Assembly: GCA_031274765.1 (NCBI GenBank)
Contig: JAISPR010000005.1
Coordinates: 1 to 44,787 of the forward strand
Source of the DNA: Nitrososphaerota archaeon
GTDB taxonomy: Archaea; Thermoproteota; Bathyarchaeia; Bathyarchaeales; Bathycorpusculaceae
Length of the DNA stretch: 44,787 nucleotides
Direction: 5' to 3'
In this document: positions 33,802 to 35,729 of the stretch, in pieces
How positions within the stretch are numbered: the stretch's first letter is position 1
How the letters are laid out: the number at the start of each line of letters is the position of its first letter
Translations under genes and position numbers: made by a program
Notes under the pieces: generated by a model
Told to the model about the DNA's origin: nothing
Database searches by the model: none
What the model saw: the letters and a program-made list of their open reading frames with translations, nothing else

Positions 33802-35091
33802 TTATTTGATGATTTTTCCTTTTAGATAAGTCACTAAAGTTTCAATTACTTCAACCCGTAAAGTTTTGCCCAACAGCATCTCAGGTGATTTGATAACTAT
33901 GGGTTTGTAAGCAAAGTTTCTACTAATCCAGGAATTAGTCACTTTACCAGGTTCGTCCACTAGCACTTCGCCGCGCCAGCCGAGCCAGGTTTTGTTGCGC
34001 CCGGTGGAGATTTCTTTAGCTAATTCTGCAGTAAGGGCGCTTCTATGTTTGATTTCTTCTTGGTCCACCAAACCATCACTTATATTCCAAGCAACGGTTT
34101 TTGGTCTAGCAAAAAATTTTGAGACATTTGTGATGTCAGGTTGGGTTTTTTTTAATAATTTGAGGGTGTTATCGAAGGCTTCGGGGGTTTCACCGGGAAA
34201 GCCTACGATAACATCTGTAGATAGGGTTAAATCGGGGAACACCGCTCGGAAGGCTTCTACGATTGTTTGGAAGTCCTCAGGGGTGTAAACTCGGTGCATA
34301 TCAGCTAAGACTTTGTTGTCGCCACTTTGGACGGGTAGATGTAAAAATTTGAAAAGCCGTTGATTTTCAAAAGCGGTAATTAGTCGGTTTTGCATAGGTA
34401 TAACTAGATTGGGTGTCATCATACCTACGCGTATATGAAAGTTTCCTTTCAAACTGTTCGTTGCACAGAGTAGATCGGCAAGGTTAGTTTTGATGTCTCT
34501 TCCGTAGCTTGCTGTGTCTTGGGAGGTTATCCAAAATTCTTGGCATCCAGTTGTGTAGTCTGTTTGGATGCGTTGAATAATTTCGGGTATGCTGTAGCTT
34601 CGTAGGTGGCCGCGGGCGTGTACAACACAGCAATAGGTGCAACTTCCCAGGCAGCCAAAGTTTATGGGAATTATACTGATGATAGGATTTGTTTGTAGTT
34701 TGGGCAGTGTTAGAGGGGGTTTTTCTTTGTGGGTTGTAAGGGCTACGATTTTTTGTCCGTCTAGGATGTGTTTGACTATGTTGATGATTTTTTCGCCGGT
34801 TGCTGGGCCAATGACACCATCGAAGGGGACTTCTTTGTTTAGGCGTTCGTAGTTGATTTTGGGTAGGCAACCGGCGATGAGGATTTTTTTGTTTTTTGGG
34901 GTTTGTTTTATGTCGTTGATGATGCGGTTTTCTGTGGGTCCTTTGACGGCGCAGGTGTTGTATATTATGATGTCTGCTTCTGTTTTGTTGGTGGTGAGTG
35001 TGTAGCCTGATTGTTTTAGGCAGCCTGCGAGTGTTTCGCCATCGGCAGTGTTGCTGGCGCAACCATAGTTTTTTATGTAAACTGTGGGCAT
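33802..35091 (-). CDS. tRNA N6-threonylcarbamoyladenosine methylthiotransferase (CDKAL1/e-MtaB type)
   Basis: 429 residues. A radical SAM methylthiotransferase that adds a methylthio group to t6A37 of tRNA. The N-terminal UPF0004 domain has its three cluster cysteines C11, C47 and C75. The radical SAM motif is C147-x3-C151-x2-C154 in GCLGSCTYC. HLPVQSGDNKVLADMHR and STDVIVGFPGETPEAF are family segments. A C-terminal TRAM domain (about 365-425: GEVLVDEPGKV ... LGKTLRVEVIE) binds tRNA. The archaeal/eukaryotic subfamily is indicated by the short start MPTVYIKNYGCASN. The stop codon directly abuts element D2. Confidence 0.92.
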   Translation of the reverse strand: MPTVYIKNYGCASNTADGETLAGCLKQSGYTLTTNKTEADIIIYNTCAVKGPTENRIINDIKQTPKNKKILIAGCLPKINYERLNKEVPFDGVIGPATGEKIINIVKHILDGQKIVALTTHKEKPPLTLPKLQTNPIISIIPINFGCLGSCTYCCVVHARGHLRSYSIPEIIQRIQTDYTTGCQEFWITSQDTASYGRDIKTNLADLLCATNSLKGNFHIRVGMMTPNLVIPMQNRLITAFENQRLFKFLHLPVQSGDNKVLADMHRVYTPEDFQTIVEAFRAVFPDLTLSTDVIVGFPGETPEAFDNTLKLLKKTQPDITNVSKFFARPKTVAWNISDGLVDQEEIKHRSALTAELAKEISTGRNKTWLGWRGEVLVDEPGKVTNSWISRNFAYKPIVIKSPEMLLGKTLRVEVIETLVTYLKGKIIK

Positions 35092-35180: not shown

Positions 35181-35192
35181 TTATTTATAAAG
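35181..35192 (-). promoter_or_regulatory. TATA box of the methylthiotransferase gene
   Basis: On the minus strand CTTTATAAATAA is a good archaeal TATA box about 95 bp upstream of the start at 35091. It is next to the palindrome cluster at 35202-35232. Confidence 0.45.
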
Positions 35193-35201
35193 GATTGAAC
35201 C

Positions 35202-35232
35202 AACATGTTATGTACATATTTGTATCATGATA
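35202..35232. promoter_or_regulatory. cluster of three palindromes, candidate RHH operator
   Basis: AACATGTT (35202-35209), TATGTACATA (35209-35218) and TATCATGATA (35223-35232) lie in the divergent spacer upstream of the RHH gene. RHH proteins bind such short inverted repeats, so autoregulation is plausible. The cluster could also affect the leftward gene. Confidence 0.4.
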
Positions 35233-35296
35233 TGTAGAAGTATAAGTGCCAAATAACGTTGTATATCTGTAAAAGCCGCAGGGAGAGATAACCCGC

Positions 35297-35452
35297 TTGA
35301 AATTAATCACTCTGTATCTACCAGAAACATATATAAAAGCTTTGGACCAACTGGTTGACGAAAGATTCTACCCCAACCGGGCCGAGGCCATACGAGTAGC
35401 CATACGCGATTTAATCAGTGCAGAAGTCTGGAGGCGTAAAGGCGTTGACTAA
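35297..35452 (+). CDS. ribbon-helix-helix (CopG/MetJ-like) DNA-binding protein
   Basis: 51 residues from a TTG start preceded by GGGAGA. The protein is a bare RHH fold: a beta strand KLITLYLPE, helix TYIKALDQLVDERFY, then PNRAEAIRVAIRDLISAEVW. The segment YPNRAEAIRVAIRD is the classic second helix. RHH dimers insert the paired strand into the DNA major groove and commonly regulate their own gene. The last 8 bases overlap the next gene, so translation is coupled. No toxin-like domain is visible in the neighbour, so a toxin-antitoxin reading is not supported. Confidence 0.85.
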   Translation: MKLITLYLPETYIKALDQLVDERFYPNRAEAIRVAIRDLISAEVWRRKGVD

Positions 35453-35729
35453 AAACCTCGATGAATTAAAATGCAACCTCACCACTGATGACGCAAAAAT
35501 CGAAGTCATCCCCACAATAATCGAAACTCCGCTAAGCATAACCGCACCCAGCATAACCCGCAAACCCAAAGCGGCTAAAGTAAAAGCAGGGATGGTTAAA
35601 GCAAAAATGACAACAAAAAAAAGCCGCCTCGAAAAAGCAACAAACAACCTCTATGATTTAGAAGACTACCATGGTCCAGAAAAAACCCTCAACATCGATT
35701 TGGACCTCTATCAAATGGAAGACTACTAA
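35445..35729 (+). CDS. unknown basic/acidic low-complexity protein coupled to RHH gene
   Basis: 94 residues from a TTG at 35445 that overlaps the RHH stop. A start further upstream would lie within the RHH gene. Three parts can be seen: an N-terminal stretch of about 30 residues (LTTDDAKIEVIPTIIE), a lysine/alanine-rich middle (RKPKAAKVKAGMVKAKMTTK) that looks disordered and nucleic-acid-binding, and an acidic end (LYDLEDYHGPEKTLNIDL and DLYQMEDY) resembling a short linear interaction motif. I do not recognise a family. The coupling suggests that it acts with the RHH protein. Confidence 0.65.
   Translation: MTKNLDELKCNLTTDDAKIEVIPTIIETPLSITAPSITRKPKAAKVKAGMVKAKMTTKKSRLEKATNNLYDLEDYHGPEKTLNIDLDLYQMEDY

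Follow-up and report, generated by a model that had tools for sequence, protein, structure and literature searches.

What kind of protein is encoded by a small archaeal gene that begins inside the last codons of a ribbon-helix-helix (RHH) regulator gene, and what could such a protein do? In the window analysed here, a stretch of 44,787 nucleotides from a draft genome of 2.50 Mb (170 contigs, 95.6% complete), two forward-strand open reading frames at 35297–35452 and 35445–35729 encode proteins of 51 and 94 amino acids, and their coordinates confirm an overlap of 8 bp, as described in an original prediction made from the bare sequence. That prediction regarded the second product as an unrecognised, disordered protein and stated that no ftsZ was present, so that the role of the pair was left open.

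The gene pair and its locus

Divergently oriented upstream of the pair lies a gene for a MiaB-like tRNA methylthiotransferase (33802–35091, reverse strand; TIGR01578, 401.8 bits, above the cut-off), and about 0.9 kb downstream a gene for a metallo-beta-lactamase-fold hydrolase is found. The best 80 of 181 related stretches were used for comparison, and as only these were kept, all counts over the 80 loci lean to close relatives. The nearest named relatives among them are Bathyarchaeia, including Candidatus Bathycorpusculum, and the MiaB neighbour of locus L016 is 79% identical to that of the window. The divergent MiaB neighbour marks the locus as conserved, being present in 75 of the 80 loci; the stretches were too short in L007, L064 and L077, and the gene was absent from view in L079 and L081. 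With regard to the gene behind the RHH gene, the 80 loci comprised 42 short ones, 34 complete full-length ones, two full-length ones truncated at contig ends (L042 and L056), L034, left unassigned because another frame was longer, and L079, where such a gene is lacking. With the copy in the window itself (L001), the short loci number 43.

Relationship of the second gene to ftsZ2

Searches of the second protein itself against Pfam (to E 1) and NCBIfam (to E 0.01) were both negative. Its identity was revealed by the relatives, 36 of which (among the best 80 of 181) carry FtsZ directly behind the RHH gene, two of these genes being cut by a contig end and six lacking the GTP motif; the passing remark of the original prediction that RHH genes lie near ftsZ in some archaea thus proved to be the key. 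The 34 complete full-length loci encode FtsZ or degenerate FtsZ of 315–387 amino acids, and in the 42 short loci, as in the window, the frame in the same place measures 83–119 amino acids from stop to stop. A profile built from the 34 full-length proteins matched all 43 short proteins, which had been picked by length and place alone, and 41 of them at E ≤ 1e-3. The weakest matches, L048 and L081, were at about 0.005 (worst 0.0053), and the best of 4300 shuffled control sequences reached E 0.47. Profile–profile alignment with hhalign paired positions 13–95 of the short family with FtsZ 299–386 over 83 columns (probability 99.4, E 4e-21), so that residues 11–94 of the window's protein (35475–35726, forward strand) correspond to approximately the last 88 residues of FtsZ. 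The C-terminal ends are alike, as seen in LYDLEDYHGPEKTLNIDLDLYQMEDY of the window and LFNLEPYAAPEKPLDIKLNLYQMENF of the FtsZ of L038.

The start of the gene is also shared. The list of open reading frames gives a GTG-initiated frame of 103 amino acids (35418–35729), and the 94-amino-acid version starts at the TTG at 35445, 10 nt downstream of a likely ribosome-binding site, GGAGG (35430–35434, forward strand), which lies inside the codons of the RHH gene. A TTG equally spaced from the RHH stop codon was found in 35 of the 43 short and 22 of the 36 full-length loci, counted by codon place and, for the full-length rows, by place alone and not by frame row by row. As the strongest similarity lies within about 28 residues, one might suppose that the gene is unrelated to FtsZ and resembles it at a short acidic end by chance or convergence. 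This is barely conceivable in view of the 83 aligned columns, the match of L015 to the FtsZ profile from position 294 to the end at 77.8 bits, and the start place, overlap and locus held in common with full ftsZ genes.

Judged by the profile homology, the common TTG place and the common locus, the second gene is an ftsZ2 gene after an internal in-place deletion of about 285 codons, a size derived from the alignment, and not a new gene; that it is a tail-only ftsZ2 is close to certain. No Tubulin/FtsZ GTPase domain with its GGGTGTG motif is found in the product by Pfam search, nor any PF12327 match, only the last stretch of the FtsZ C-terminal domain (FtsZ 299–386) being represented, whereas the FtsZ C-terminal peptide is recognised both in the tail alignment and by the profile matches, and the gene occupies the place of ftsZ2, immediately after a CdrS-type RHH gene. 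The GTPase domain and most of the C-terminal domain are accordingly the parts lost, and the acidic C-terminal peptide (residues 67–94; 35643–35726, forward strand), delimited by the tail alignment and by codon dN/dS and presumed to be the SepF-binding end, the part kept. Of the GID motif described in archaeal FtsZ, the tail shows no more than a loose form. Hence the supposedly unrecognised protein, with its profile matches in 43 of 43 cases, is an FtsZ2 without its core, and the ftsZ that was said to be missing is the second gene itself. A literature search over titles and the starts of abstracts, in open-access papers with subscription papers mostly outside its range, returned no report of an FtsZ reduced to its tail among the matches listed.

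The structure model of the second protein showed no fold (mean pLDDT 61, one helix of six residues), and the protein is probably disordered, in line with what had been predicted. Its net charge is −3 over residues 1–36, +10 over residues 37–66 and −7 over residues 67–94, which bears out the description of a basic middle and an acidic end. Among ten relatives, the acidic end is conserved (−4 to −7) and the charge of the middle is not (−4 to +12), and the basic middle was therefore dropped as a candidate functional part.

The RHH gene is CdrS-like

The first gene (35297–35452, forward strand, TTG start) encodes a short RHH protein of family PF01402 (RHH_1, E 1.5e-7; 31.6 bits, above the cut-off). 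It also matched the NCBIfam CdrS model NF058555 (E 4.1e-11), at 42.7 bits versus a cut-off of 100, so that it falls outside that family as defined; the short name of the model, TransRegCdrSHalo, suggests that it was made for haloarchaea. The protein is near-invariant, five of the best 80 of 181 relatives being identical to it and 78 of 80 at least 75% identical, and the dN of its gene is 0 in the window's closest pairs. The cdrS-ftsZ2 pair is described as widespread in archaea (mBio 2020, PMC7439475), and ftsZ2 is reported often to adjoin a gene named parD (PMC8178401). The arrangement seen in the 36 FtsZ-bearing loci is that of CdrS paired with ftsZ2, and the match to the CdrS model together with the adjacency to FtsZ identifies the RHH gene as CdrS-like, by sequence and by neighbourhood, with a putative regulatory role. 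As in the pair described in PMC7439475, a small RHH gene stands directly upstream of ftsZ2, here with an overlap; the difference is that the ftsZ2 gene of the window encodes only the tail. CdrL is described in the same source as restricted to Halobacteria.

The RHH gene is not patchily distributed. A strong match was present in 28 of 29 genomes of the genus, and the remaining one, G057, showed a weaker second copy only. Two RHH matches occur in most genomes with any match; the second RHH gene of the window's genome (L002/L172; G000 contig 148, 15660–15803) is 48% identical to the first and adjoins a frame that we read as resembling orotidine-phosphate decarboxylase.

A phased promoter element precedes the operon

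A putative TATA box of the operon promoter, TTTATAAA (35184–35191, forward strand), is aligned in the relatives. It is followed by an operator-like element (35202–35246, forward strand) with three CAT boxes at 35204, 35215 and 35226, in an 11-bp phase, and a conserved AGAAGTATAA stretch. The three short palindromes predicted just upstream of the gene pair are all present, namely AACATGTT (35202–35209), TATGTACATA (35209–35218) and TATCATGATA (35223–35232). With the TATA box, the intergenic stretch holds four palindromes of at least 8 bp, with P values from 2000 Markov shuffles of 0.04 for their presence and 0.41 for their clustering, and as such they are only mildly unusual. The expectation that the palindromes are conserved was borne out in part: in the second and third the perfect symmetry is lost among relatives, but the CAT boxes inside the palindromes are kept. 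Three CAT boxes spaced 11 bp apart were found in 65 of 81 loci, compared with 0.08 loci expected by chance, and the letters 3′ of them are conserved as well in the alignment of relatives. The element occurs in 38 of 45 short loci, a count that includes L034 and L079, and in 27 of 36 full-length loci; the exact spacing is missing in 16 of the 81, including the short clade L072/L073/L075, which is without the third box. Because the CAT boxes are what is conserved, they replace the palindromes as the candidate operator.

RHH proteins bind tandem short repeats, and the archaeal transcription start lies at a known position relative to the TATA box. As the element covers the expected start, its placement suggests repression, most simply by CdrS itself. 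The compact two-gene module originally proposed is supported by the conserved promoter element together with the conserved overlapping start, and the gene pair is likely to be self-regulated. A profile of the element gave one strong match in the genome, its own operon (E 3.1e-16); in this search for a CdrS regulon, in which 150 of 1899 candidates were scored, all further matches (the next best at E 0.11) were within chance. In Haloferax, CdrS is reported to have 18 sites, one of them upstream of ftsZ1 (PMC8406309), in contrast to the one strong site in the window's genome, and a single site here would thus mean a narrower regulon.

A small RHH gene that overlaps another small gene behind an operator-like element is also what would be expected of a toxin–antitoxin pair, with the RHH protein as antitoxin. 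We rejected this reading as most improbable, since the partner is an FtsZ tail in which no toxin fold was found, and since the RHH gene is nearly invariant, precedes FtsZ in relatives and is present throughout the genus with the strong matches given above.

Repeated loss of the FtsZ core and selection on the remainder

To place the short genes, we used a MiaB neighbour tree, built in a quick IQ-TREE run from 85 rows with SH-aLRT as its only support values; loci without a long enough neighbour gene were left out of it, nine later stretches were added, and L034 was scored as short. The short state required four changes on this tree, at least three of them forced by starred branches; the core was thus lost at least three times on the neighbour-gene tree. 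The window falls in a clade of 41 short rows (support 99, starred) nested among full-length lineages. Short genes also form the groups L072/L073/L075/L092 and L093/L094, as well as four rows of families f23 and f20, whose branches are long and whose sequences are partial. In a survey of 163 genomes of the class, 51 genomes had a tail at E ≤ 1e-3 in a long frame and 55 had one in a short frame; the short form occurred in 29 of 29 genomes of the window's genus. The short-tail counts are lower bounds, as the profile missed a short tail in G027 and a tail-like gene in G145 that was seen by eye. In a survey of 299 genomes of the phylum, the tail profile gave 41 matches, 40 of them within the class and the sole one outside it weak and in a 386-amino-acid frame (G217).

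As to whether the short gene is still of use, its reading frame was found to be conserved in relatives. In 26 pairs of relatives, which are not independent and whose sequences are short, dN/dS was 0.12–0.42 for the whole short gene outside the overlap and 0.02–0.49 for the last 28 codons, apart from one pair at 0.83 where dS was 0.07. The short gene is under purifying selection. The large deletion, the weakly conserved middle and the full-length FtsZ copies without GTP motif in other lineages would also fit a decaying, functionless ftsZ2 pseudogene; the dN/dS values, the frame and tail kept across the 41-row clade, the promoter element retained in most short loci and an end state reached at least three times led us to reject this as very unlikely.

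Other FtsZ genes in the class

A PF00091 search of the window's draft genome gave no match at E ≤ 1e-3, and the sole match of a lineage-specific full-length FtsZ profile in it was the tail gene (27.4 bits). Two other genomes with a short tail and SepF likewise gave no FtsZ match above the cut-off, namely G087 (one contig, 96% complete) and G064 (about 10 contigs, 99% complete), and the absence of FtsZ is firmer there because the assemblies are good. A separate FtsZ1-like gene was found in 6 of 32 genus genomes, the label FtsZ1 being assigned from place and sequence without an FtsZ tree. None of 20 FtsZ1-like proteins in the class bears the acidic peptide at its end, and many end basic; these 20 remained of 24 loci read after removal of L089 and L157 (no frame with the motif), L159 (an FtsZ2 with tail) and L154 (a different type). 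The FtsZ2 tail is therefore the only SepF ligand recognisable by sequence.

Full-length FtsZ2-type copies that lack GGGTGTG and retain the tail were found in L064, L065, L068, L069, L076 and L078. Five of these six are on the MiaB tree, on branches other than those of the short clades, and therefore represent parallel decay and not steps towards the form seen in the window. The model of the pseudo-FtsZ of L068 was poor (pLDDT 50, pTM 0.47), its PDB matches mixing azoreductases and FtsZ, and the protein itself matched no Pfam family; among the 17 aligned rows, 15 match PF00091.

At least 14 of 29 genus genomes also encode a tubulin-like protein in frames of 805–908 amino acids, for which the window's genome gave no match at E ≤ 1e-3; in L084 (G053) a protein of this kind, of 863 amino acids, has a 383-amino-acid gene beside it on the opposite strand. 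These large proteins perhaps belong to the FtsZ-like family of Makarova and Koonin 2010 (PMC2875224). The divergent families described there are, like the tail gene, non-canonical archaeal relatives of FtsZ, but they keep the tubulin-like domain and are encoded by separate genes. The evolution of FtsZ and tubulin is treated in PMC9871819.

SepF usually accompanies the tail

Archaeal SepF is reported to bind the FtsZ C-terminal domain peptide and to track FtsZ (Nat Commun 2021, PMC8178401), and Haloferax SepF to bind FtsZ2, binding to FtsZ1 not being seen in that report (Nat Commun 2021, PMC8187382). The window's genome carries a sepF gene on another contig (L083, 1162–1773, 203 amino acids). 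Among 21 SepF proteins compared, from 12 tail-gene genomes (its own included) and nine full-FtsZ genomes, the core is 61–83% identical to that of the window's genome, and all 21 contain GDIARLGEER. SepF measures 156–231 amino acids in 10 of the 12 tail-gene genomes versus 119–132 in the nine full-FtsZ genomes, the exceptions being G086 (131) and G087 (89, start doubtful). In most of the tail-gene genomes (L083, L112–L121 and L131) the stretch ahead of the core is longer than in the FtsZ-bearing relatives. Two archaeal SepF-like entries were credible relatives of the window's SepF among solved structures, and no SepF–peptide complex was matched. The FtsZ end and the SepF family are thus the same as in the SepF–FtsZ peptide systems described (PMC8178401, PMC8187382); the differences are that no FtsZ polymer stands behind the window's peptide and that in those 10 genomes more residues precede the SepF core.

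Among FtsZ-less genomes, SepF was detected in 40 of the 43 that carry the tail gene and in 15 of the 27 that do not (Fisher P = 0.0005, a statistic that ignores relatedness), and it was also detected in 51 of 51 genomes with a long-frame tail. A genome was here counted as having FtsZ when a match of 33.9 bits or more was listed for it in a frame below 500 amino acids, and G162 was scored as SepF-negative as it was not among the listed positives. A tail without detected SepF occurred in the FtsZ-less G061, G085 and G143 and in G050, where an FtsZ1-like gene accompanies the tail. The tail was undetected in 15 FtsZ-less genomes with SepF, one of which (G124) is a single contig; in several such genomes the second RHH copy is the only one seen, so that their assemblies may not cover the locus. 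The SepF-lacking G136, G142 and G144 keep the CdrS-like gene, with no tail gene seen behind it, and G142 has FtsZ genes elsewhere; G145, of the same family as G144, has SepF and the tail-like gene noted above. G112, also without SepF, has a full FtsZ2 with a degenerate end. Homology and co-occurrence make it likely that the tail protein acts through SepF.

Cdv genes and tail genes without an RHH gene

In the window's genome, cdvB, cdvA, another cdvB and cdvC follow one another, with the Pfam CdvA and AAA domains above and the ESCRT-III and NCBIfam Cdv models below their cut-offs. ESCRT-III matches at E ≤ 1e-3 were found in 29 of 29 genus genomes, and together with the CdvABC cluster they indicate that cells of this lineage probably divide with Cdv. 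Bathyarchaeia are listed with both CdvABC and FtsZ homologues in PMC9723716, and the distribution of ESCRT is covered in PMC11188069.

In genomes of families f23 and f17 the tail gene was present and no RHH gene was detected within the 2-kb stretches read. The f23 genomes G155 (L173) and G154 (L174) show the order miaB, tail gene, a gene for a 70-amino-acid membrane protein on the opposite strand, cdvB, cdvB and cdvC, with no cdvA match within the stretch read, and in L097, from a third genome, the start of cdvB was seen near the tail gene. In G159, also of f23, the tail gene lies beside miaB with no cdv gene there, and the genome has no ESCRT-III match. Being one clade and not one operon, this neighbourhood is a lead and not proof, and a link of the tail to ESCRT-III is a possibility. 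The f17 loci L102, L103 and L104 encode tail-only peptides that span 52–63 amino acids between stop codons; the E value exceeds 1e-3 for two of the three peptides, and a miaB gene lies upstream in two of the three loci. At their starts the peptides resemble, perhaps by chance, the first strand of the RHH protein; a remnant fusion of cdrS and ftsZ2 is possible.

Such observations raise the question of whether the FtsZ2-derived tail has by now taken on a different partner (ESCRT-III, FtsZ1, a PRC-barrel protein, or nucleic acid via the basic middle), SepF being kept for another reason. The cdvB-cdvB-cdvC neighbours in two f23 genomes and the cdvB start in L097 would fit such a partner, as would the four tail-bearing genomes without detected SepF and the strongly basic middle of the window's protein. 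However, the part conserved throughout is the C-terminal peptide and not the middle, the SepF-lacking G136, G142 and G144 show no tail gene behind the CdrS-like gene, with SepF and tail-like gene both present in G145, and G159 keeps its tail gene away from any cdv gene. We consider another partner unlikely, though worth keeping in mind.

Implications

We favour, with a probability of roughly two in three, a self-regulated operon that supplies a free SepF ligand in cells probably dividing by Cdv. A cdrS-ftsZ2 operon would have lost its ftsZ2 core by in-place deletion, leaving a mostly disordered protein of 94 amino acids whose C-terminal peptide would still bind membrane-tethered SepF. The tail protein would thus form no filament but serve as a free SepF ligand, whether as a cap, an adaptor or a competitor. 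CdrS or a related RHH protein would bind the CAT boxes downstream of the TATA box and repress its own operon, and with division left to Cdv/ESCRT-III, SepF and the tail may have a role in placing, at the membrane or in regulation. A comparable case is the FtsZ of Nitrosopumilus maritimus, which is without the GTP motif and was reported not to polymerise (Ng et al. 2013, PMC3684127). As here, the gene is kept in a Cdv archaeon, apparently freed from division duty; unlike here, the protein is full-length, whereas in the window the fold is gone and little beyond the tail is left.

More speculatively, and in our estimate doubtfully, SepF and the free FtsZ tail could form a membrane-bound adaptor that places or regulates Cdv/ESCRT-III, a working relic of the switch from FtsZ to ESCRT-III. 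If so, SepF with the tail might replace CdvA in anchoring in two f23 genomes, and FtsZ would have been dismantled repeatedly around the one part still needed by the new machinery. These loci bear on how lineages pass from FtsZ to ESCRT-III division. Within one class, at one locus and mostly behind the same promoter element, full FtsZ, FtsZ without the GTP motif and the tail alone are found; the motif-less and the tail-only forms lie on different branches and are parallel ends, and they tell which part of FtsZ goes last. They also warn that cdrS and sepF in a genome are no proof of an FtsZ ring. In these uncultured archaea, the loss in place of the FtsZ motor domain, with little beyond the tail retained, points to a job for the tail without FtsZ. 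The forms found make testable the claim that one role of SepF depends on the FtsZ peptide and requires no FtsZ filament; such a role would also explain the SepF genes in FtsZ-less genomes.
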